Source: Asticcacaulis benevestitus DSM 16100 = ATCC BAA-896
GTDB lineage: Bacteria; Pseudomonadota; Alphaproteobacteria; Caulobacterales; Caulobacteraceae
Direction of reading: 5' to 3'
Assembly: GCF_000376105.1 (NCBI RefSeq)
Contig: NZ_AQWM01000019.1
Span: 166 to 64,165 of the forward strand
Length of the DNA stretch: 64,000 nt
The notes under the pieces are model-generated. The model was not told the DNA's origin. It ran no database searches and was given only the letters and a program-made list of their open reading frames with translations. Positions 24,302-36,769 of this stretch are shown here, piece after piece. Every line of letters starts with the position of its first letter. Position 1 is the first letter of the stretch. A program made the position numbers and the translations under genes.

Positions 24302-26323
24302 CTAAACTGTGACTTGCGTACCAAGTTCCACAACCCGGCCAGGAGGGATGTGGAAGAACTCGGTCGGATTGGCGGCGTTCTTGATCAGGAAGATGAAAAG
24401 TTTGTCTTGCCAAAGAGGCATGCCTGAATTCGCCGACGGCACAACATTGCGTTTGCCCAGGAAGAAGCTCGTGGACATGATGTCGAACTTCAAGCCGAGT
24501 TTCCGGCACATCCCGAGCGCCCGAGGCAGGTTGGGGCTCTCCATGAATCCATAGGCGATCGTGATCCGCTTGAAGTCTTCATTTAGCGTGTCAATGGTGA
24601 TGCGATTGGCTTCATTGACCCGCGGCGTATTGGTGGTCTTAACTGTCAGGATGATATTTTTTTCATGCAACACCTTGTTGTGCTTCAGGTTGTGCATGAG
24701 CGCGACGGGCGCTGAATCGGCATCCGATGTGAGGAAGATTGCCGTGCCGGCTATGCGGTGGGGCGGGCGGCGGTTCAGCATTTCCGCAAGGTCAAGGATA
24801 GAGACGCTGTCTCGTTTGGCTTTTTCGGCCAGTGTTTGCGACCCCTTGGTCCAGGTGAACATGACCAGGATCAGTATTAGGGCGAAGGCGAGGGGCATCC
24901 AGGCGCCAGAGAAAAACTTGGTTAGGTTGGAGGCCATAAATATAGCCTCTATGACTCCAAGCGGGATAAGGAGGGAAAGGGTGCGAAGTTTTGACCAGAG
25001 CCAGACCTTGCGGATAACGATATAGGCCAGGATGGTACTAATGAACATCGTGCCGGTCACGGCGATGCCATAGGCCGACGTCAACTTGTCAGAGCTTTGG
25101 AACATGACGATCAGGAAAAGTACGCCGACCATCAACATCGTGTTGATCTGCGGCACGAAGATCTGACCAGCCTGCGTCTCAGAGGTACGCTTGATCTCGA
25201 TGCGTGGCATCAGGCCCAGTTGCACCGCTTGTTGGGTCATGGAAAAGGCGCCGGTGATAACCGCCTGTGAGGCGATAATTGTCGCCATCGTGGCCAGCAG
25301 CATGACGGGCCAGTAGAACACGTCCGGTACCATGCGCCAGAAGGGATTTTCGTGCGCGGTCGGATCGATCAGGGTCAACGCCCCTTGGCCGAGATAGTTC
25401 ATGGTGAGGCAGGGGAATACCAGCCAGAGCCACGCCATATTGATGGGCCGCTTACCGAAGTGACCCATGTCGGCATAAAGCGCCTCAGCGCCGGTCACAA
25501 CGAGGAAGACACTTCCCAGGATTACAAAGCCGGTAAAGCCGTTCGCAATCAGGAACTGGAGACCGTAAACCGGATTCAGCGACTGGAGGATCATGGGCTT
25601 TTGAACAATGTAGTATGCCCCCATGGCAGCGATAACGATGAACCAGACCAGCATGATCGGCCCGAAGAACCTGGCCATCTTCGCTGTACCTTTGGATTGT
25701 ACCATGAACAGGGCAACCAGAATAACGATCGAAATCGGCACGATATAGCGATCGACGCTGTGCCCAACGCCGGGCGCATCTTTCAAGCCTTCGATCGCAC
25801 TCATGACCGATAGGGCGGGGGTGATCAGACTATCGCCGTAGAAGAGCGCCGCCCCACACATGCCCAGGAAGAACACGGTCGGGGAATATCTGCCCAGCGC
25901 CTTTTGTGCCAAAGCCATCAAGGCGAGCGTACCGCCTTCGCCCTTGTTGTCCGCCCGCATCAGGAAGATGACATACTTGACCGTCACCAGCAGAAGGAGC
26001 GCCCAGAACACAAGCGAGATAACGCCGAAAGTGGCGAGTTGAGGATTGGTGCCGGCGCGGGTGTGGTGTAGGGCTTCCTTCATGGCGTAGAGGGGGCTCG
26101 TGCCTATGTCGCCGAATACCACGCCAATCGCGCCCACCGCCAAGCCCCAGAACCCCGTGTGGCCATGGCCGTGACTTTCAATGGCTTCGGCTTCAATGGC
26201 GGTCTTGGCATCTGGCTGGGCGCTTGGGAAGTCAGATGTCCCTTCGACGGCTGGTGACCCAGCATCCGTCTGCGGGTGCCCGGCAGGTCGTTCAGTCTTC
26301 GGTGATGGGGGTAAGCCCGTCAT
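24302..26323 (-). CDS. kup: KUP/HAK/KT-type potassium uptake transporter
   Basis: A 673-residue potassium-proton symporter. After a ~55-residue hydrophilic leader with SHGHGHTGFW, the first TM carries the family signature GAIGVVFGDIGTSPLYA, followed by about twelve membrane helices and a C-terminal soluble domain (about 530-673) ending SGMPLWQDKLFIFLIKNAANPTEFFHIPPGRVVELGTQVTV. It lies 104 bases downstream of the divergent kdpC paralogue on the same strand, so it is probably in the same transcript and under the KdpE-box promoter at 28.35 kb. A small GTCCC/GGGAC hairpin at 26369-26382 lies in the gap. Confidence 0.93.
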   Translation of the reverse strand: MTGLPPSPKTERPAGHPQTDAGSPAVEGTSDFPSAQPDAKTAIEAEAIESHGHGHTGFWGLAVGAIGVVFGDIGTSPLYAMKEALHHTRAGTNPQLATFGVISLVFWALLLLVTVKYVIFLMRADNKGEGGTLALMALAQKALGRYSPTVFFLGMCGAALFYGDSLITPALSVMSAIEGLKDAPGVGHSVDRYIVPISIVILVALFMVQSKGTAKMARFFGPIMLVWFIVIAAMGAYYIVQKPMILQSLNPVYGLQFLIANGFTGFVILGSVFLVVTGAEALYADMGHFGKRPINMAWLWLVFPCLTMNYLGQGALTLIDPTAHENPFWRMVPDVFYWPVMLLATMATIIASQAVITGAFSMTQQAVQLGLMPRIEIKRTSETQAGQIFVPQINTMLMVGVLFLIVMFQSSDKLTSAYGIAVTGTMFISTILAYIVIRKVWLWSKLRTLSLLIPLGVIEAIFMASNLTKFFSGAWMPLAFALILILVMFTWTKGSQTLAEKAKRDSVSILDLAEMLNRRPPHRIAGTAIFLTSDADSAPVALMHNLKHNKVLHEKNIILTVKTTNTPRVNEANRITIDTLNEDFKRITIAYGFMESPNLPRALGMCRKLGLKFDIMSTSFFLGKRNVVPSANSGMPLWQDKLFIFLIKNAANPTEFFHIPPGRVVELGTQVTV

Positions 26324-26427: not shown

Positions 26428-26988
26428 TCATTTCAGTTTACCGTCCAAGCGCAGGTTAAGCTCAAGAACGTTAACGTAAAGCCCGCCGCCCAGTTCATAG
26501 GTCGGATTATGCAGGGAGGTCTCGACGAGCGATGAGACCGTGGTGTCACTCAGTCCTCGAGCCTGTGCAATGCGATGAACCTGGAAGGCTGCGGCCTCTG
26601 GACTAATCCGCGGCATGTCTCCGGGTATGCCGAATTGGGTCAGATCGTCCGGAACCTGCGCATTGGGAAGTGCTTTCAGTGCCTGGAGACGCTCATCCGC
26701 CAACCGGCGACACTCCAGAGTGTACGCGCGGTGGCTTTCGTAGCAGTCTGCACCCTTTGCGTTGACAATTTTGCCCCAGAAATATTGAGGCGCATCTACA
26801 GGTGCGCCATCTAGGGTAGACGCCAGGATTTGGCCCGTCCGGTCGCGAATGGCCGTATCGCTCACCTGAGCGTTCCACGCATTCTCGACGAGGGCTTTGA
26901 CAAGGAGGGGGTAGGCGCCGCCCAGCAGAACCGTGAAGGTTAGGAGAAGGACCAAGGCTGGTCTTACTTGAACGGATTTTAAGACCAT
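26428..26988 (-). CDS. divergent KdpC paralogue
   Basis: A 186-residue protein with KdpC architecture: one N-terminal TM (VRPALVLLLTFTVLLGGAYPLLV) and a periplasmic domain whose end (VHRIAQARGLSDTTVSSLVE...NVLELNLRLDGKLK) is nearly the same as that of the canonical KdpC at 32.7 kb. The middle differs: the canonical SSGSNLG-NNP segment is replaced by KGADCYESHRAYTLECR with two cysteines. The gene overlaps the KdpA-like gene by 10 bases. No kdpB lies between them, although the canonical order is A-B-C. It could associate with the neighbouring KdpA-like protein or with the canonical complex; this is inference. Confidence 0.85.
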   Translation of the reverse strand: MVLKSVQVRPALVLLLTFTVLLGGAYPLLVKALVENAWNAQVSDTAIRDRTGQILASTLDGAPVDAPQYFWGKIVNAKGADCYESHRAYTLECRRLADERLQALKALPNAQVPDDLTQFGIPGDMPRISPEAAAFQVHRIAQARGLSDTTVSSLVETSLHNPTYELGGGLYVNVLELNLRLDGKLK

Positions 26989-28259
26989 TTGGTTTGACCG
27001 TCAGAAGACCGCGGAGTCGTCGCGAATGAACCGGCGATGGCGAGCGCAGGTATCATGATCCAGAAACGGCTCAACAAGATGGCGCCACCCCATAGAGCAT
27101 CAAGCGCGGAAAGGGGCGAAGCGAATGCGGGCAGGCTCAAACTGAGAAGGTGAAAGGCGCCGAGGGCGATCGCCGGAACCAGTAAGGCTGTCAATGCCAT
27201 TGTAAGATCAAAGCGCCCTACTTTGTGATCCTTATAGACAAGCCCCCGGCCCAGGACCCATCTACGTATGCAGGCCGTCAGTGTCATCAGGGCGACCAAG
27301 AGGTACAAAACCGTTCCGTTTCGGTCGGCCAGCCCGCCCAAAGTGCCAACCGGATTCTGAGCGAACTCAGTGGACGTCAGCGCAGATACGCCAAACAAAG
27401 CGACCACGCCCCCCAAGAGGAGGTAGGCCTGGCGCTTGTCCCTGATCATGTTCCCGAACGTCCAGCACAAAGCCGCCGGTATCAGCCAGCGAGACAGAAA
27501 GTCGATCAAGCTCGTCAATGGCGTTGAGACGGCCGCCAAGTGCGCGCTATTGGCGTTCACGAAGCTCCCCGCTTGCGTGACCGTTAATTTGAGTGTCTCG
27601 GTCGCTGCAACAGCCTCCAGACCATTGGAAGCGGTTGAAGGGTGTCCCAGGTTTGAGACGGCGTAGGCTTCGATCGCGTCGCCGACGCCTGCGGTGGCGA
27701 TGAGCAGCGCATAGGCCAAAGACAGAGGCAGCAGGACGTATAAGACGGACCGGACGAGATCGACCCAGAAATTTCCAATGTTACCCGATGCGGTGCGCGT
27801 AATGCCCCGTGTCACGGCCACAAAGACGGAGATGCTGACGGCGGCCGACAGGAAGTTCTGAACGGTCAGTCCCAGCATGCGACTTGCTGGGGTCAGCGCA
27901 CTGCCGGGGGCAGGCATAGACACGCCCGAATTGGTGATAAAGCCGGCTGCGACTTTGAAGGCAAGAGCCGGTGACACCCCTTGCAGGTCCTGCAGCATCA
28001 GGACCGAGTAAAGAACGACAAAACTGAAACCTGAGAAGACGAGTACCGACAGGGCATATGATTTCCAGGACATGCCCTTCTCTGCATCCACGCCTGCGGC
28101 CCAGTAGAGTTGCGCTTCTAACCAGGAGAGCAGGGGAGAGAGGAAAGTCGGCTTGCCTCGGTAGACACGGCTGAGATAGCCGCCCATGGGCGCGATACAC
28201 AGCGCAAGCACTGCCAGGTTAATCACGAAATGCAGATATTGAGGGGAATTCGGAACCAT
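26979..28259 (-). CDS. degenerate KdpA paralogue without selectivity-filter motifs
   Basis: A 426-residue membrane protein clearly homologous to KdpA (576 residues at 28.9 kb): shared blocks are GLTVQNFLSAAV, GNIGNFWVDLVRSVLYVLLPLSLA, VNANSAH, MIRDKRQA and RFWIMIPALAIAGSFA. The potassium filter is dismantled. TNTNW is TNSGV (109-113), GTNGGG is VTQAGS (227-232), the third pore loop (canonical GGAGSGLYG) is absent and the fourth (canonical TNNNGS) is deleted. The open frame is intact and the membrane segments are hydrophobic, so it appears to be maintained. ATG 28259 gives an N-terminus aligning with KdpA. Cotranscribed with the KdpC paralogue and kup, and divergent from kdpXFABCDE. It cannot be a normal potassium pore; a regulatory or scaffold role is inferred. 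Confidence 0.85.
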   Translation of the reverse strand: MVPNSPQYLHFVINLAVLALCIAPMGGYLSRVYRGKPTFLSPLLSWLEAQLYWAAGVDAEKGMSWKSYALSVLVFSGFSFVVLYSVLMLQDLQGVSPALAFKVAAGFITNSGVSMPAPGSALTPASRMLGLTVQNFLSAAVSISVFVAVTRGITRTASGNIGNFWVDLVRSVLYVLLPLSLAYALLIATAGVGDAIEAYAVSNLGHPSTASNGLEAVAATETLKLTVTQAGSFVNANSAHLAAVSTPLTSLIDFLSRWLIPAALCWTFGNMIRDKRQAYLLLGGVVALFGVSALTSTEFAQNPVGTLGGLADRNGTVLYLLVALMTLTACIRRWVLGRGLVYKDHKVGRFDLTMALTALLVPAIALGAFHLLSLSLPAFASPLSALDALWGGAILLSRFWIMIPALAIAGSFATTPRSSDGQTKWS

Positions 28260-28336: not shown

Positions 28337-28384
28337 GTATAGAAAGTGTATAATTTTGAGGTATGGCCGTATATATTGTGTATA
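28337..28384 (-). promoter_or_regulatory. tandem KdpE-box pair before the degenerate kdpA operon
   Basis: On the minus strand TATACACTTTCTATAC (28337-28352) and TATACACAATATATAC (28369-28384) each contain two TATAC half-sites 11 bases apart. The two boxes are set exactly 32 bases apart, about three helical turns. OmpR-family regulators such as KdpE bind direct repeats of this kind. They lie 78-125 bases upstream of the KdpA-like start. Confidence 0.6.
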
Positions 28385-28543
28385 ATTTATGGCGCGCCAA
28401 GCCTGATTTTCATGTGTATTCATATGTAAGTCGAAGTGATTGAAATGGGAAGAGCGGCGAAGCTGAACCGCTTGATCAGTCTTCGAGAAAATCACTTTAG
28501 CCAATACAGCTTATGCTCGGCTAAGCCTGACATATATGCTGTC

Positions 28544-28628
28544 TATACACTTTTCCATCGGATTGACAGCTCAGCTCCTATACAAAATCTATATGGCGTA
28601 GGCCCCAGTTTATACACTACCTATATAC
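28544..28628 (+). promoter_or_regulatory. KdpE-box array before kdpXFABCDE
   Basis: Three plus-strand boxes: TATACACTTTTCCATC (28544-28559, second half weak), TATACAAAATCTATAT (28579-28594) and TATACACTACCTATAT (28611-28626, with TATAC again at 28624). The last two are 32 bases apart, the same spacing as in the other two pairs. The proximal box ends about 54 bases before the first start codon, a suitable place for activation. Confidence 0.6.
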
Positions 28629-28679: not shown

Positions 28680-28775
28680 ATGACTTTTATCTATCTTGCC
28701 GGCGGGGTGGCGTTCTTTGTCGTCTCCGCTCTTTTCGTTGGGCTGTGCGAGCGGCTGCGGGAGAACGGCCAATGA
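28680..28775 (+). CDS. 31-residue membrane micropeptide upstream of kdpF
   Basis: The frame MTFIYLAGGVAFFVVSALFVGLCERLRENGQ (given here only by its parts: hydrophobic residues 3-23, then charged CERLRENGQ) begins 8 bases after a perfect Shine-Dalgarno AGGAGG. Its stop overlaps the kdpF ATG (ATGA at 28772-28775), so the two are translationally coupled. It should be a single-pass membrane peptide with the charged tail in the cytoplasm. From memory, small open frames of this type precede kdpF in other proteobacteria but are rarely annotated. It may be an extra small subunit of the Kdp complex; no function is known. Confidence 0.7.
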   Translation: MTFIYLAGGVAFFVVSALFVGLCERLRENGQ

Positions 28776-28864
28776 CCGAACTCTATATAGGTGCAGGCGT
28801 GATTGTTATCGCCTTGTTGGGCTACCTGCTGGTTGCCCTTATCAAACCCGAAATTTTTCCGTAA
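28772..28864 (+). CDS. kdpF: KdpF, small stabilising subunit of the Kdp ATPase
   Basis: A 30-residue peptide whose core GVIVIALLGYLLVALIKPE matches KdpF (LLGYLVYALI-E-F in Escherichia coli). It forms a single membrane helix and stabilises KdpFABC as a lipid-like component. It overlaps the preceding micropeptide by 4 bases and is followed by kdpA after 15 bases. Confidence 0.9.
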   Translation: MTELYIGAGVIVIALLGYLLVALIKPEIFP

Positions 28865-28879
28865 ATCACAGAGGGTACT

Positions 28880-30610
28880 ATGTCCCAATTTATCACGGGC
28901 AATGGCTGGTTGCAGCTTGCTCTCTATATGGTCGTGCTGCTGGCGTGCGTTGTGCCGCTGGGTGGCTATATGGCCAAGGTTTTCCAAGGCGAAAAGACCT
29001 TTATGTCGCCGGCGCTTGGCTGGCTTGAAAAAGGTATCTATGCCATCTGCGGCATTGATCGCGAGAAGGATATGAGCTGGCAGGACTACGCCATCGCTAC
29101 GCTTGTCTTTTCGGCGCTTAGTTTTGTTGTTCTCTACCTGATCCTCGTCTTCCAGAACCTGCTGCCGCTTAATCCGCAGAAACTGCCCGGCCTGACGCCG
29201 GACCTGTCGTTCAACACGGCCGTTAGCTTCGTCACCAACACCAACTGGCAATCCTATGTCGGCGAAGCCGTCATGAGCTATTTCAGCCAGATGGTCGGTC
29301 TGACCGTGCAGAACTTCGTCACCCCGGCCGTCGGCCTGGCGGTGATGATCGCGCTGATCCGTGGACTTTCCCGCAAATCGGCCGCAGGTATCGGCAACTT
29401 CTGGGTCGATATGGTCCGCGCCAATCTCTATGTGCTCCTGCCTCTGGCGCTGGTTCTCGCTGTCATTCTGGGCTCACAAGGCGTCATCCAGAATTTCGGC
29501 ACCTATGTCACCGCGCACGGCCTGCAAGGCGCCGACCAGACCCTCGCCATGGGGCCGGTGGCCAGCCAAGAAGCCATCAAGATGCTCGGCACCAATGGCG
29601 GCGGTTTCTTCAACACCAACTCGGCTCATCCGTTCGAGAACCCGACGCCGTTCACCAATTTCCTTGAAGTTCTGGCCATCCTGCTGATTCCGGCGGCGTG
29701 CTGCCATACCTTCGGTGTGATGGTGAAGGATAAACGTCAGGGCTTCGCCGTTCTGGCCGCCATGACCGTAATTTTCATTCCGCTCCTGCTGCTCTGCGTC
29801 TCGGCCGAGCAAGCTGGTAACCCGCACCTTAACCACCTCGGTGTCGATCAGGTTGCCAGTGCTGTTCAATCCGGCGGCAACATGGAAGGCAAGGAAACGC
29901 GCTTCGGCATCACCAACTCGGCGCTTTGGGCCTCCGCCACCACGGCAGCCTCTAATGGCTCGGTCAATTCCATGCACGACAGCTTCACCCCGATGGGTGG
30001 TTTCGTGCCGTTGATCCTGATGAAGTTCGGCGAAGTCATCTACGGCGGCGCCGGTTCAGGCCTCTACGGCATGCTGATCTTCGTGATCATCGCCGTCTTT
30101 ATCGCTGGCTTGATGGTCGGCCGCACGCCGGAATATCTCGGCAAAAAGATCCAGGCGTTCGAGATCAAGATGGCTTCGGTCGCCATGCTGGCTCCGTGCG
30201 TTTTTGTCCTCATCGGCACCGCCATCGCGGTCATGATGAAGGACGGGCAGGCGGGCATCTATAATCCCGGTGCGCAAGGCTTTACCGAAGTGCTTTACGC
30301 CTTCACCTCGGCCACCAACAATAATGGCTCGGCCTTTGCCGGCCTCAGTGCCAACACGCCCTTCTACAATACGGCGCTCGGTCTCTGCATGTTGTTTGGC
30401 CGCTTCTTCATCATCATCCCAGTTCTGGCTATCGCCGGCTCGCTGGCCGCCAAGAAGACCGTTCCTGTCTCTGCCGGCACGCTTCCCACCCATACCACGC
30501 TCTTCGTCGCGGTTCTGGTGGGCGTCATCCTTATTGTCGGTGTCCTGACCTATGCGCCCACGCTCGCGCTTGGCCCGGTCGTCGAACACTTCAACATGAT
30601 CAAGGGCTAA
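28880..30610 (+). CDS. kdpA: KdpA, potassium-binding channel subunit
   Basis: A 576-residue membrane subunit related to superfamily of K+ transporters that selects potassium in the KdpFABC pump. All four pore-loop motifs are present: TNTNW at 119-123, GTNGGG at 237-242 followed by [20 protein letters not shown] at 389-397 and TNNNGS at 479-484. Length is normal for the family. It is the reference for the degenerate paralogue encoded across the divergent promoter. Ribosome binding site AGAGGG precedes the ATG, and kdpB starts 4 bases after its stop. Confidence 0.97.
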
Positions 30611-30614
30611 GTCC

Positions 30615-32708
30615 ATGTCCGCTACATCAAACCCCAAAAAGAGTGGATTGTTTGAGGGGGCCGACCTCGGCTCCGTCTTCAAGAACTCGATCCTCCGCCT
30701 AAATCCCGTCTATCAGGCGCGTAACCCGGTCATGTTCCTGGTGTTCGTGGGCTCGATCATCACGACCGGCATCTTCGCCGTCATGCTCGTTAAGCCCGAC
30801 AGCGTGATCGGTGGCGGCCAGCCCCTGTGGTTCGTCGGTCTGATCACCTTCTGGCTGTGGTTCACGCTCCTGTTCGCCAACTTTGCCGAGGCCATCGCCG
30901 AAGGCAAGGGCAAGGCGCAGGCCGACAGCCTCAAGAAATCGCGCCGCGATGTGTCGGCCAAGAAGCTGAACAAGGTCTCAGATCGCGCCAAGCACCTCAC
31001 CGTGCCGGCCAACAGCTTGCGCAAAGGCGACATCATCGTTGTCGAGGCCGGTGACTTCGTGCCGTCCGACGGTCAGGTCATCGAAGGCATCGCCTCTGTC
31101 GATGAAAGTGCCGTCACCGGTGAATCGGCGCCTGTCATCCGCGAATCCGGCGGTGACCGTGACGCGGTGACTGGCGGCACGCGGGTGCTCAGCGACTGGC
31201 TGGTGGTGCGCGTCACCTCCGATCCCGGCGAAAGCTTCCTCGATCGCATGATCAGCCTGGTCGAATCGGCCAAGCGCCAGAAGACGCCGAACGAAATCGC
31301 CTTGTCGATCCTGCTGGCGGCACTGACCATCATCTTCCTGCTCGTCTGCGCGACCCTGCTGCCGTACTCGCTGTTCGGTGTCACTCGTGCAGGCTCCGGC
31401 ACGGTCATCACGATTACCGTCCTGATCGCGCTTTTGGTTTGCCTAATCCCGACCACCATCGGCGGGCTTCTGTCGGCCATCGGTATCTCGGGGATGCAAC
31501 GCCTGATCAAGGCCAATGTCATCGCGACCTCCGGCCGCGCCGTCGAAGCTGCCGGCGACGTCAATGTCCTGCTGCTCGACAAGACTGGCACCATCACCTT
31601 CGGCAACCGTCAGGCGGTCGAATTCTTCCCGGCGCCGGGTATTACGCAGCAACAACTGGCCGAAGCCGCCGAACTGTCATCGCTTGCCGATGAAACGCCT
31701 GAAGGCCGCTCGATCGTGGTGCTTGCGCGAAAGCTGTTCGGCCTGCCGGAAAAAGATGTCAGCGCCCTCAAGGCGGAATTCATCCCCTTCAGCGCCGATC
31801 AGCGCGTATCCGGCATCGTCATCAATGAGCGCCATATCATGAAGGGCGCCGGCGATGCCATCGCCAAACTGGTGGGCCTGAAAGGCGGCTCCGTGCCGCA
31901 CGAGGTGACGGTTCAGATCGAAGATATCGCCCGCAAGGGTGGGACTCCGTTGACTGTGGCCGAAAATAGCCAAGTCTTGGGCGTCGTCTATCTGAAGGAC
32001 ATCGTCAAGCCGGGTATCAAGGCGCGACTGGCTGACCTGCGCAAGATGGGCATCAAGTCGGTAATGATCACCGGCGACAATCCCCTGACCGCCGCCGCCA
32101 TCGCCTCCGAAGCCGGCGTCGACGACTTCCTCGCCCAGGCTACCCCTGAGATGAAGCTCAAATACATCCGTCAGATGCAGGAGGGCGGTGAACTGGTCGC
32201 CATGGTGGGAGATGGCACCAACGATGCCCCCGCTCTGGCCCAATCCGACGTGGCGGTGGCCATGAACTCCGGCACCCAGGCCGCGAAGGAAGCCGGCAAC
32301 ATGGTCGATCTTGACTCAGATCCGACCAAGCTGATCGAGATTGTCGAGATCGGCAAGCAACTCCTGATGACGCGCGGTTCGCTGACGACCTTCTCAATCG
32401 CCAACGATCTGGCCAAGTATTTCGCCATCATTCCGGCGGCGTTTGCCACCACCTATCCGGTGCTTGGCGCGCTCAATGTGATGCATCTGGCCTCGCCGCA
32501 AAGCGCCATCCTGGCGGCGGTCATCTTCAACGCCCTGATCATCATCGCGCTCGTGCCTCTGGCCCTGAAAGGCGTCAAATATCGCGCCGAACCGGCCGCC
32601 AAAATGCTCTCGCGCAATATGTTCGTCTATGGCCTCGGCGGTATCATCGCTCCGTTTATCGGCATCAAGCTGATCGATATGGCGCTGGCGGCTGTCGGTC
32701 TGGCATAA
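30615..32708 (+). CDS. kdpB: KdpB, P-type ATPase catalytic subunit
   Basis: A 697-residue P-type ATPase that energises potassium uptake at very low external potassium. The phosphorylated Asp is D322 in DKTGTIT; the actuator loop is VTGES at 167-171, whose Ser171 corresponds to the inhibitory phosphoserine described in Escherichia coli KdpB (Ser162). The hinge motif [21 protein letters not shown] and the TGDN motif are intact, and [15 protein letters not shown] marks the ion-site helix. It is the only kdpB in the window, so the KdpA/KdpC paralogues have no dedicated ATPase here. Confidence 0.97.
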
Positions 32709-32719
32709 GGAATACGGAA

Positions 32720-33307
32720 ATGAAATCTCTTCTCTCAACACTCCGCCCGGCCATAGGCACTACGGTCTTGCTGACGGTGCTCCTGGGTGGCGTCTATCCG
32801 CTCGTGACCACCGGCATCCTGCAACTGGGCTTCAAGGCTCAGGCGCAGGGCAGCCTGATCAAGGACGCGGACGGCAAGGTCATCGGCTCTAGCCTGATCG
32901 GTCAGAACTTCGACCAGCCCAAGTATCTATGGGGGCGCCTGTCTGCCACCGGCACCGCGCCCTATAATGCCGGCGCATCTTCGGGCTCCAACCTCGGGTC
33001 CAACAATCCGGCTCTGCTCGATGCGGTCAAAGGCCGTGTCGCCGCCCTGAAAGCCGCCGATCCGCTCAATGCCAAGCCGATCCCGGTCGATCTCGTCACG
33101 GCGTCCGGCTCCGGTCTCGACCCCGAGGTTAGCCCCGCCGCCGCCGCCTATCAGGTCAACCGAATCGCTCAGGCCCGTGGTATTGGTGTCGAAAGCGTCA
33201 AATCGGCCATTGCCAAATCGACCCGCGGCCGCGACCTTGGGGTGCTTGGTGAAGCCCGAGTGAATGTGCTTGAGGTCAATCTAAGGCTCGATGGAAAGCT
33301 GAAGTGA
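32720..33307 (+). CDS. kdpC: KdpC, accessory subunit of the Kdp ATPase
   Basis: A 195-residue subunit with one N-terminal TM (IGTTVLLTVLLGGVYPLV) and a periplasmic domain bearing the conserved YLWGRLSATGTAPYNAG, SGSNLGSNNP, DLVTASGSGLDPEVSPAAA and VNVLEVNLRLDGKLK segments. KdpC stabilises the complex and raises ATP affinity. The stop codon overlaps the GTG start of kdpD, indicating coupled translation of pump and sensor. Confidence 0.96.
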   Translation: MKSLLSTLRPAIGTTVLLTVLLGGVYPLVTTGILQLGFKAQAQGSLIKDADGKVIGSSLIGQNFDQPKYLWGRLSATGTAPYNAGASSGSNLGSNNPALLDAVKGRVAALKAADPLNAKPIPVDLVTASGSGLDPEVSPAAAAYQVNRIAQARGIGVESVKSAIAKSTRGRDLGVLGEARVNVLEVNLRLDGKLK

Positions 33308-36024
33308 CACCAGACAAACGCCCCAATCCGGACCGGCTCCTTGAGCTGGTCCGAAACGAATCGAGTGAGTTCCCGCGCGGCCATCTGAAGATCTTCTTCG
33401 GATCGTCGGCGGGGGTTGGCAAGACCTTTGCCATGCTGACAGAAGCGCGCCGGCGCCAGTCAGAAGGTAAAGACGTCCTGATCGGGGTTGTCGAACATCA
33501 CGGCCGGTCTGAAACGGCAGCCCTTGTGGAAGGGCTGCCGGTTTTGCCGTTACAAGAGATCGACCATCGCGGTGTGAAGGTCCGGGAATTCGACCTCGAT
33601 GGTGCCCTGGCTCGCAAGCCACCTTTGATCCTGATGGATGAGTTTGCACACACCAACGCGCCAGGCTCGCGCCACCCCAAACGCTGGCAGGATGTCGAGG
33701 AACTGCTCGACAACGGCATTGATGTCTACACCACGCTGAACGTGCAGCATCTGGAGAGCGTCAATGATCAGGTCGCAAAACTGACAGGGATCTGGGTCAA
33801 GGAAACAGTGCCAGACACCATTTTCGAATCGGCGGATGAAATTGCCCTGGTCGATATCCCGTCCGACGAATTGCTGAAGCGCCTGGCCGACGGTAAGGTC
33901 TATGTCGCCGAGGGCGCCAACAAGCGGGCTGCCGAGAACTTCTTCAAGAAAACCAATTTGCTGGCTCTGCGCGAACTGGCCCTGCGCCGCACCGCCGAAC
34001 GGGTCGACGCGCAGAGCGACGAACTGAACGCCGCCATGGGCCAAAACGAAGCCCAGGTCGGCCAGAAGATCATGCTTTTGATCGGACCGGACCCGCTCTC
34101 CACCCGCCTGATTCGTCATGCCAAGCGGATGGCGACGCGGGGCAGGGCACCGTGGTACGCGGTCTATCTGCAAAGTGACCGCCACGAACAACTCGACGAA
34201 AAGGGGCGGACGCGTGTCGAGCAGTACCTGCGGCTGGCGGAGAACTTAGGCGCTCAAATTGTGCGTTTGTCCGGGGCGCGTCCGGCGCAGGATATTCTGG
34301 CCTACGCACAGCAGAACGGTTTTACGCGCATTGTGGTCGGTTATCGCCGACCCAAATGGTGGCTACGACCCTTTCAAAGCACGCTTGCGCAAGCCCTGAT
34401 CGAGGCCAGTGATGGCATGGAGATTACTGTGGTGCATGGCGCCACTGGACAGGCGCGTGCCCCCCTCCAACCCGTAGATGCCTTGCGACCCTTTTTAGCC
34501 CGTCCTCTGGATTATGGCCTGGCGACCGCAGCGGTCGCCTTGTGTACCTTGATCGCGTTCCCGTTCCGCGATCATACACCGTCGAACAATCTGGCCATGA
34601 TCTACCTGACGGGCGTGGTGGTTGTCGCCGCCAGGCTGGGCCTGGGACCATCCATTCTTGCCTCGATGCTCAGCATCCCGGCGTTCAATTTCTTCTTCAC
34701 CGATCCCTATTACACCTTCAATTTCTACGACACCTACTATTACGTTACCTTCGCCTTCATGCTGGTGACGTCCCTGGTGGTCGGTTCCCTGACCGCGCGG
34801 CTATCGCGCCACGCCCGGCTGGTCAGCAACCGCGAACGCGAAACCCAGATTCTGTACGGTCTGACCCGAGGACTATCGAATGAGCGGAGCGTCGAGATGA
34901 TCTGCGCTGTCGCGATTAAGCACTTGAGTGGCCCGTTCAGTCTCGACGTGACGGTTTTTGTACAAACGCTAAATGGGCTTCAAACCTATCCCGTCGGAGC
35001 GGCAAGCCAGGACATGCGTGAAATGGGAGCGGTCAACTGGGTCGCGGCTAATGGCCTGATGGCGGGACGTGATACCGACACCATGCCTTCGGCCAGGGGG
35101 CTTTACTTGCCTTTGCAGGCCGAGAGTGAAAACCTGGGCGTTCTTGGCCTGACGGCTCGCAATGCGACGCAGCCCTTCTCAGGCGCGGAAATTCTGCAAT
35201 TCGAGGCCTTTGCCAGCCTGATCGCCGGGGCTCTGCAACGGGCGCGCCGCTCCGAGCAGGCGGCAGAAGCCAAGGTCGAGTCCGAGAACGAAAAGCTACG
35301 CAATGTGCTCCTGTCGTCCTTGTCACATGACTTGCGGACTCCGCTGACGGTGATGAATGGTTCGGTCAGCCTGCTTCTGCGTATGCGTAAAGAGTTGCCG
35401 CGCAAGGCGGTTGATGAATTGACAGGCTTGTGGAGCCAACTCGGACGCTTGCAAAAATTTGTCGGCAATCTGCTCGATATGGCGGCGATCACCTCAGGCC
35501 ACATGAAGCTCAATTTCCAGCCCTATATGATCCAGGAAATCATCGGCGCTGCTATTGGTCGTGCGCAAGCAACCAAGGGCGCACGTACCTTGCGGACGCA
35601 GATATCTGGCGAATTGCCCATGGTCAGGATCGATGGTGGTTTGATCGAGCAGGTGTTTATCAACCTGATTGAAAATGCCTTCCAGCATACGGATGATAAC
35701 GGCGAGATCGTTATTTATGTCGAGAAGGATGCCGACCGTCTGCGCGTGCGTGTCTCGGATAATGGCACAGGCCTTAAAGAGGGCGAAGAGGCCCGCATCT
35801 TCGAACAGTTCCAAAAGGGCCAGACACTCAGATCCGATCGTTCCGGCGGAACAGGGCTGGGCCTGGCCATTTGTCGAGGGATCGTACAGGCGCACGGCGG
35901 TATGATCTATGCTAAAAACAATCGCAGTTTGCCCGGTCAGAGCGATGCGCGCTCCAGTGCCGGGGCAAGCTTTATCTTCACGCTCCCCATCGCGACCGCT
36001 ACCGCCGCTTCCGAAGAGATATAA
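33304..36024 (+). CDS. kdpD: KdpD, potassium-responsive sensor histidine kinase
   Basis: A 906-residue kinase. In order: N-terminal KdpD domain with Walker-A-like GSSAGVGKT (33-41) and LMDEFAHTNAPGSRHPKRW; a universal-stress-protein-like domain (about 250-375); four short TM helices (about 395-500, with NLAMIYLTGVVVVAARLGLGPS); a GAF-like domain; the dimerisation domain with phosphorylated His675 in SLSHDLRTPL; and the HATPase (NLIENAFQHTDD, VSDNGTGL, SGGTGLGLAICRGIVQAHGG). Start codon is GTG overlapping the kdpC stop. It phosphorylates KdpE under potassium limitation or osmotic stress. Confidence 0.96.
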   Translation: MTPDKRPNPDRLLELVRNESSEFPRGHLKIFFGSSAGVGKTFAMLTEARRRQSEGKDVLIGVVEHHGRSETAALVEGLPVLPLQEIDHRGVKVREFDLDGALARKPPLILMDEFAHTNAPGSRHPKRWQDVEELLDNGIDVYTTLNVQHLESVNDQVAKLTGIWVKETVPDTIFESADEIALVDIPSDELLKRLADGKVYVAEGANKRAAENFFKKTNLLALRELALRRTAERVDAQSDELNAAMGQNEAQVGQKIMLLIGPDPLSTRLIRHAKRMATRGRAPWYAVYLQSDRHEQLDEKGRTRVEQYLRLAENLGAQIVRLSGARPAQDILAYAQQNGFTRIVVGYRRPKWWLRPFQSTLAQALIEASDGMEITVVHGATGQARAPLQPVDALRPFLARPLDYGLATAAVALCTLIAFPFRDHTPSNNLAMIYLTGVVVVAARLGLGPSILASMLSIPAFNFFFTDPYYTFNFYDTYYYVTFAFMLVTSLVVGSLTARLSRHARLVSNRERETQILYGLTRGLSNERSVEMICAVAIKHLSGPFSLDVTVFVQTLNGLQTYPVGAASQDMREMGAVNWVAANGLMAGRDTDTMPSARGLYLPLQAESENLGVLGLTARNATQPFSGAEILQFEAFASLIAGALQRARRSEQAAEAKVESENEKLRNVLLSSLSHDLRTPLTVMNGSVSLLLRMRKELPRKAVDELTGLWSQLGRLQKFVGNLLDMAAITSGHMKLNFQPYMIQEIIGAAIGRAQATKGARTLRTQISGELPMVRIDGGLIEQVFINLIENAFQHTDDNGEIVIYVEKDADRLRVRVSDNGTGLKEGEEARIFEQFQKGQTLRSDRSGGTGLGLAICRGIVQAHGGMIYAKNNRSLPGQSDARSSAGASFIFTLPIATATAASEEI

Positions 36025-36714
36025 ATGACCGACTCTCCCCGCATCCTCTCTATCGAAGATGAGGCCGATATCCGAAAGTTCCTTCGCACGACCCTGGCCA
36101 CTCACAACATGACGGTGGTCGAAGCTGAGACGGGTAAAGAAGGGTTGCAGAAAGCGGTGTTACAAACGCCGGACGTGATCCTGCTCGACCTTGGGCTTCC
36201 AGATATGGACGGCATGGACATCATCCGCCAGGTCCGGGAGTGGGGAAGGACCCCGATCATCGTGCTGTCGGCACGCGGTCAGGAAGCGGACAAGGTCGAG
36301 GCGCTTGAACTTGGCGCTGACGATTATCTCACCAAGCCTTTCTCTGCCGCTGAGCTGATCGCCCGCATCAAGGTGGCGCTCCGCAACCGCAATCAGCCAC
36401 AAGGGGACGCGCCGTTCGTCTACAACCATGATAGCCTGATCATCGATACGGCGGCGCGGCGCATCCGTCTGGACGGCGAAGATATTCACCTGACGCCGAT
36501 CGAATATAAGCTTCTTACGGTCCTGGCGCGAAACTCAGGCAAGGTCCTGACACACGGTGCGCTCCTCAGCGAGGTGTGGGGAAAGCACAACTCGGAAAAT
36601 CAGACCTATTTGCGCATCCACACCCAGCACCTGCGCGAGAAGCTCAAGGATGACGCGCTCAATCCACGCTTTATTGTCACGGAGCCTGGGATCGGATACC
36701 GCCTGAAGCCTTGA
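36025..36714 (+). CDS. kdpE: KdpE, OmpR-family response regulator
   Basis: A 229-residue regulator: receiver domain (1-120) with phosphorylated Asp55 in LLDLGLPDMDG and the conserved Lys in LTKPFSAAEL, and a winged-helix output domain ending RFIVTEPGIGYRLKP. It begins directly after the kdpD stop. Its expected binding sites are the TATAC direct-repeat boxes at 28.34-28.38, 28.54-28.63 and 36.72-36.77 kb. Confidence 0.96.
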   Translation: MTDSPRILSIEDEADIRKFLRTTLATHNMTVVEAETGKEGLQKAVLQTPDVILLDLGLPDMDGMDIIRQVREWGRTPIIVLSARGQEADKVEALELGADDYLTKPFSAAELIARIKVALRNRNQPQGDAPFVYNHDSLIIDTAARRIRLDGEDIHLTPIEYKLLTVLARNSGKVLTHGALLSEVWGKHNSENQTYLRIHTQHLREKLKDDALNPRFIVTEPGIGYRLKP

Positions 36715-36721
36715 ACTGAGC

Positions 36722-36769
36722 TATACAAAAACACTACGCGGACAGGTCAAATCTATACGCCTGTCATAC
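36722..36769 (+). promoter_or_regulatory. third KdpE-box pair, downstream of kdpE
   Basis: TATACAAAAACACTAC (36722-36737) and TATACGCCTGTCATAC (36754-36769) are 32 bases apart, as in the pairs at the kdp promoters. The proximal box ends 51 bases before the start of the following open frame. This suggests that the 99-residue protein and DapA-like gene downstream belong to the KdpE regulon. Confidence 0.5.

Follow-up and report, generated by a model that had tools for sequence, protein, structure and literature searches.

The stretch of DNA analyzed here, a 64,000-nucleotide piece of the Asticcacaulis benevestitus genome (the window), contains two divergent operons with paralogous members (Table 1). 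One is a canonical kdp operon; the other opens with paralogues of its kdpA and kdpC, here written kdpA* and kdpC*, and probably continues into kup.

Table 1. Genes and predicted operators between positions 24302 and 36714 of the window.
Feature	Position	Strand	Description
kup	24302-26323	-	next gene after kdpC*, same strand
kdpC*	26428-26988	-	186-aa KdpC paralogue; two Cys (C82, C93) where the SGSNLG loop was
kdpA*	26979-28259	-	426-aa filterless KdpA paralogue without the C-terminal helix
KdpE-like operator array, kdpA* side	28337-28384	-	four TATAC-like half-sites, spacing 11-21-11, 20/20 positions
KdpE-like operator array, kdpF side	28579-28626	+	spacing 11-21-11, 20/20 positions
kdpF	28772-28864	+	divergent neighbor; named by resemblance
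kdpA, canonical	28880-30610	+	four filter loops all present
kdpB	30615-32708	+	named by resemblance
kdpC, canonical	32720-33307	+	
kdpD	33304-36024	+	named by resemblance
kdpE	36025-36714	+	named by resemblance; putative regulator of both divergent operons

Both paralogous frames are intact and overlap by 10 bp, as a preliminary description of the locus had reported. The start of kdpA* is the ATG at 28259; the frame stays open up to a TTG at 28400, from which translation would cross the operator array. The kup gene encodes a full-length Kup (PF02705) and lies 104 bp beyond kdpC*, a gap in which the terminator scan returned no terminator-like site; it is probably the third gene of the kdpA*-kdpC* operon. 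This membership, like the kup-linked KdpE-like promoter array discussed below, adds to the preliminary description. The further claim that there is no second kdpB holds for the operon of the pair and fails for the genome: KdpA and KdpC each have three homologs there (in the pair, in the neighboring kdp operon, and in a second kdpABCDE on contig C6), and kdpB occurs twice, once in each full kdp operon.

The borders of the kdp operon show some additional features. A 31-aa hydrophobic frame (28680-28775) directly precedes kdpF, its end overlapping the kdpF start, and DNA that appears similar by eye precedes kdpF in G022, G010, and G019. An operator-like array (17/20) directly follows kdpE at 36722-36769, and downstream of it a frame from 36820 is open for at least 91 codons.

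The preliminary description had suggested looking for short, filterless kdpA genes beside kdp loci, and such genes recur in 4 of 25 Asticcacaulis genomes: the window genome (G000), A. taihuensis (G023), G021, and G019. In every carrier kdpA* is followed by kdpC* and then kup, and the three genes run divergently from kdpABC(D); kup of G021 reaches the contig end and is incomplete. The paired genes overlap by 4-10 bp in three carriers and lie 5 bp apart in G021, and in G019 and G021 kdpC* overlaps the first kup start by 4 bp. In the other three carriers KdpA* is 58, 42, and 29% identical to the window copy, and KdpC* 62, 39, and 34%. Seventeen of the remaining 21 genomes of the genus have kdpA; the pair stands beside kdp at none of these 17 loci, all of which have a KdpD match. 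Profile searches outside the genus found no KdpA* among the matches listed for 299 family, 385 class, and 398 phylum genomes, and no KdpC* among those listed for 398 order genomes; these samples overlap, with 4-8 candidates scored per genome. High profile scores among the matches listed belong only to G000, G019, G021, and G023, and G019 and G021 presumably fall outside one of the genome samples. A scan of genome contigs returned 37 loci, one of which (L031, A. taihuensis) is KdpA*.

Several candidate relatives were set aside. Short KdpA-like frames in G204, G298, G753, G844, and G317 are, in all but one case, contig-end cuts or canonical KdpA split between two frames; canonical filter motifs were seen in four of these five genomes, and in G317 one KdpA fragment contains TNTNW and the other none of the searched motif words. 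A tblastn search of plasmids gave 435 records, none covering 80% of KdpA* and all below 60% identity; among the best 15 of these 435, four name kdpA and the others name no gene or carry no annotation. Two adjacent kdpA-like frames with canonical-like motifs lie near a contig end in a Phycisphaerales MAG (L065), a locus with some unread bases that was dropped.

KdpA* scores 228.6 bits against the KdpA Pfam profile (PF03814; cut-off 22.6), which places it among KdpA homologs, and 191.7 bits against TIGR00680, below the equivalog cut-off of 387.7; it is 40% identical to the adjoining canonical KdpA. With the filter-loop motifs of that canonical protein as reference (TNTNW, GTNGGG, TAASNGS, TNNNGSA), the first two read TNSGV and VTQAG-S in the window KdpA*, and the third and fourth are missing together with the last helix. 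The alteration or loss of all four motifs in an intact frame, reported before for the window, extends to all four KdpA* proteins, none of which keeps any of the four; in G021, unrelated letters (PALSCGL) lie beneath the third. The C-terminal helix stretches GVLTY and LALGPVVEH are missing from all four. Of 113 columns conserved at 95% or more in 58 canonical KdpA (rows of at most 540 aa and L065 left out), 60 are kept in no KdpA*. The missing portion presumably includes H523 and G524 (E. coli KdpA numbering). Having neither a filter motif nor the C-terminal helix, KdpA* should, to judge from its sequence, neither select nor conduct K+.

The preliminary description also held that the stretches at the subunit interfaces are preserved, and this survives in part. 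All four KdpA* retain the motifs GN-F/Y-W-x-D and IPALA, the D1-D2 loop residues G162, N163, W165, D167, and R170, and the end of D4M2; GLTVQNF is present in the proteins of the window and A. taihuensis, and not in those of G019 or G021. A KRQ-like stretch after D2M2, which we take to be the place of the cardiolipin ligand R278 (E. coli KdpA), is partly kept. The 11-residue stretch on the D3-D4 side, however, is altered in the window (GRGLVYKDHKV) or absent, and the D3/D4 loops and C-terminal helix are likewise altered or lost, which weakens the case for a simple swap into KdpB complexes. The predicted structure of KdpA* (mean pLDDT 67.7, pTM 0.74) is good in the first half only and weak in the second; its best PDB matches are the KdpA chains 7nnp_A, 6hra_A, and 5mrw_A (E < 0.001), followed by KtrB and TrkH (E > 0.05), and it contains nine helices of membrane length (at least 21 residues). 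The KdpA membrane fold is thus kept in part, comprising the first helix, much of D1 and D2, and the last D4 helix; the helix names D1-D4 and the sidedness of the loops follow KdpA topology, mapped onto the KdpA* model.

KdpC* is likewise a member of its family by the Pfam profile (PF02669; 100.9 bits, cut-off 24.1), and scores 101.1 bits against NF001454, below the equivalog cut-off of 178. Alignment upholds the earlier observation that the window protein keeps its C-terminal end (NVLELNLRLDGKLK) and loses SGSNLG, a loop missing from all four KdpC*. Three residues invariant in the four (D44, A56, F119) occur in none of 50 canonical KdpC (L057 and L064 left out), all of which carry G44 and G56, and N36 occurs in none of 48. 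Each KdpC* contains exactly two cysteines, near the site of the lost loop; among the 50 canonical proteins, 37 contain none and 6 two or more. It is possible that the two form a disulfide. The KdpC* model (mean pLDDT 83.9) finds its best PDB matches in KdpC chains of solved KdpFABC, with 5mrw_C at the top, and the membrane helix and periplasmic domain are retained. No Pfam domain besides KdpA and KdpC was detected in the eight KdpA* and KdpC* proteins.

We read the pair as duplicated kdpA and kdpC genes unaccompanied by kdpB. In the KdpA tree (L063-L065 left out), the four KdpA* are split from 58 canonical KdpA by a branch with 99/100 support; their neighbor in the best tree, weakly supported (83/74), is kdpA of the carrier subclade, and their branches are very long. 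An origin outside all kdpA of the genus was not rejected (p-AU 0.147, from a set that held two of the four KdpA*). A quick KdpC tree, in which long branches were joined (L057 and L064 left out), places the four KdpC* together, nearest to KdpC of the genus. A tree of 23 kup genes, part of the kup set of the genus (25 rows, two genes being split), gathers the genes with an upstream box, including the four Kups of the trios, into one clade (98/100). Boxed kup genes without the pair are those of G000 (contig C2), G022, G016, G008, and G010 (contig C13). The G010 Kup nests with the trio Kups of G019 and G021 (88/90), a position among carriers that is consistent with loss of the pair. Most simply, the pair would have been gained once, by a kup operon that already had its box, and lost in G010.

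The arrangement of kup varies among these and other genomes. Tandem kup genes occur in G000 (C2:416297-420314), L121, and L122, the second with a KdpE-like box; in two tandems one member is split over two frames, the first kup in G022 and the second in G016. A KdpE-like half-site pair precedes kup in G008 (C8:121454), where no kdpA was found. In G753 and G844 (L176, L177), from the same phylum and another class, kup adjoins kdpA with no KdpA* or KdpC* between them.

The two TATAC-like arrays between the divergent operons, one per strand, are the two best-scoring places in the window, and none of 300 shuffles reaches the score of either, at an 11-21-11 spacing that was set after the sites were seen. 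Arrays also precede kdpA* in G019 (20/20) and G023 (17/20), again with 0 of 300 shuffles reaching each score. G021 has four TATAC before kdpA* at 11-11-11, and its score at the 11-21-11 spacing (13/20) is reached by 58 of 300 shuffles; the kup array of G010, also 11-11-11, scores 13/20, reached by 89 of 300. In the 5-Mb window genome there are four sites of the strict pair TATAC-N6-TATAC—two before kdpA*, one before the other kdp operon, and one before the second kup of the tandem—against three for the backwards control, so that it is the location of these pairs that speaks, and not their number. Seven of 11 sites of the looser TATAC-N6-TATAY in this genome lie before kdp, kdpA*, or kup (backwards control, nine sites), and genus-wide there are 129 sites against 165 in the control, so that the looser pattern falls on unrelated places no less frequently than its control does. 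Single half-site pairs alone are not informative; the array test is stronger. Scans for sigma-70 promoters (2 found, 2.3 expected) and for terminators (6 found, 4.9 expected; two minus-strand sites within kdpA*) were at chance level. For comparison, passages of the published work describe Caulobacter kdpA as induced by low K+, with a KdpDE promoter suspected (PMC8552747), and KdpD as controlling KdpFABC (PMC11018627).

We consider it likely that the pair is a neofunctionalized, very probably non-conducting module with KdpE-like control. The partner of such a module is a matter for more caution. We tentatively favor a KdpDE-induced, non-conducting KdpA*/KdpC* module that acts on K+ uptake with Kup as its partner; the stricter proposal, in which a non-conducting KdpA/KdpC pair with filter and ATPase gone has become a dedicated K+-starvation subunit of the Kup permease, is more doubtful. 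The mechanism would build on the position of kdpA*-kdpC* between a KdpE-like array and a kup of the boxed clade: KdpA* and KdpC* may associate in the manner of KdpA and KdpC, may form a non-conducting accessory module made with Kup under K+ starvation, and could then stabilize or tune Kup, for example as scaffold and periplasmic cap. Such a role would follow the beta-subunit manner suggested for KdpC in parts of the structural literature (PMC6255902; PMC8385062). Kup is favored because of the shared operon, the altered D3-D4-side stretch, and the lost last helix. Where the preliminary description had offered a replacement subunit, a K+ sensor, or a partner of Kup, the operon and promoter evidence makes a Kup-related or K+-starvation-related role concrete, without choosing among the three.

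The main rival, which we regard as rather unlikely, is a modulator of KdpFABC: KdpA* and KdpC* would compete for KdpB, KdpF, or KdpC, serving under K+ starvation as a dominant-negative brake, an assembly factor, or a decoy. This explanation stays alive because the pair adjoins kdp in the same genomes, all four carriers, with KdpE-like control shared between the two operons; and since kup also adjoins kdpA without the pair in G753 and G844, linkage cannot choose between Kup and KdpFABC. The retained D1-D2 loop residues and D4M2 end, with the partly kept KRQ-like stretch, also fit a KdpFABC modulator. The altered or absent D3-D4-side stretch, the C-terminal helix absent from every KdpA*, and the lost conserved columns, however, argue against it. 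Passages in the structural work place the KdpB-linked coupling helix at D3M2 of KdpA, and describe a cardiolipin of structural importance that uses H523 and G524 of KdpA at the interface with KdpB (PMC6255902; PMC8385062), although the coupling salt bridge is given as dispensable in a passage of the later work (PMC8385062).

It is improbable, in our view, that the pair is instead what remains of a duplicated kdp operon, with its constraint relaxed and its loss under way. Very long branches, shortening (426, 434, 368, and 320 aa for KdpA* from the chosen starts in the four carriers), the G010 kup without the pair, and dN/dS of up to 0.66 in the most diverged comparisons would agree with such a fate. 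The dN/dS comparison proposed in the preliminary description is nonetheless well below 1 in the closest pair, window against A. taihuensis: about 0.20 for KdpA* and 0.10 for KdpC*, values that are rough because dS is saturated (1.7 and 2.9), against yardsticks of 0.14 for KdpA, 0.065 for KdpC, and 0.045 for Kup. Comparisons with G021 or G019 give 0.285-0.66 for KdpA* and KdpC* where defined (one pair has infinite dS), versus 0.145-0.21 for canonical KdpA and KdpC in comparable pairs, which suggests that the most diverged members are under weaker, or less clear, constraint. Identity of KdpA* between the window and A. taihuensis is 0.65, 0.78, and 0.42 at codon positions 1, 2, and 3, and under simulated neutral substitution the frame stayed free of stops in 18 of 500 runs at 0.1 changes per site and in 0 of 500 at 0.45. 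Conservation between these two KdpA* peaks in D2M1 (0.91) and D4M2 (0.90) and is poor in the pore-loop regions and D3; since D2M1 agrees with the canonical majority at just 0.41, KdpA* appears constrained in its own way. Simple decay is therefore unlikely, as the preliminary description had argued from the intact frames, given open frames in four genomes, the closest-pair dN/dS, and shared derived residues that are conserved. Sequencing error or a pseudogene is unlikely in view of the four genomes, open frames, and dN/dS.

The canonical operon of the window has a history of its own. Its kdpA and kdpB DNA (28800-32700) is 85-98% identical to the second kdp locus and to G022 (L007, L098), and from kdpC onward most blocks are 69-85% identical to the same loci, with one at 90-91%; in the trees, the window KdpA groups with the second-locus and G022 copies, and the window KdpC with G023. 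Gene conversion between the two kdp loci of the window genome is probable, and the window kdpA, probably overwritten in this way, is an imperfect yardstick for dN/dS.

Slightly less probable than a relict is a potassium-state sensor or KdpD adaptor, in which the pair would sense K+ or pump load and feed back on KdpDE. The KdpE-like operators, a fold retained although the conduction motifs are lost, and the conserved periplasmic domain are what such a sensor might be expected to show, but the 17 other kdp-bearing genomes of the genus have a KdpD match without the pair, and Pfam detects no domain beyond KdpA and KdpC. A transporter or channel in its own right, with a different pore or substrate, is the least credible reading: the predicted KdpA-like fold with nine membrane-length helices would allow it, but KdpA* lacks pore loops three and four, conservation is low in D3 and around the pore loops, and there is no linked ATPase gene.

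If the module does act on Kup, as we tentatively favor, an unrelated permease would, unusually, have taken over subunits of a pump, with parts of one K+ importer serving a structurally unrelated one. A natural KdpA-KdpC pair that lacks both filter and KdpB also separates the binding of KdpC to KdpA from the selection of K+ by KdpA, and so offers a genetic system for testing what KdpC and the KdpA scaffold do; the role of KdpC is called an uncertainty in a passage of the structural literature (PMC6255902). The preliminary description knew of no account of such a pair, and searches of the literature (subscription papers and preprints lying outside it) on paralogues of KdpA, its truncated or orphan forms, accessory subunits of Kup, and control of kup by KdpDE listed none; nor did the search find a paper on Kup with KdpA-like or KdpC-like companions.

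Among known systems, the closest counterparts are the subunits of KdpFABC. KdpA* is homologous to KdpA mainly across the first 300 residues, and KdpA chains are its best fold match; it differs in having no intact filter motif, no C-terminal helix, and a sub-equivalog score, and in belonging, in all four carriers, to a cluster without kdpB. KdpC* shares the domain layout of KdpC, with 5mrw_C its best PDB match, but has a CX7-10C stretch in place of SGSNLG, D and A in place of G44 and G56, and sub-equivalog scores. The third gene of the cluster encodes a full-length Kup permease (PF02705). The KdpE site of E. coli kdpFABC, described in a passage of PMC3264566 as two 6-bp direct repeats (TTTATA, TTTACA) with 5 bp between them, shares with the predicted Asticcacaulis sites direct half-sites with an 11-bp period; the Asticcacaulis half-sites are instead TATAC, form doubled arrays, and, besides the kdp operon, precede kdpA*-kdpC*-kup and further kup genes.
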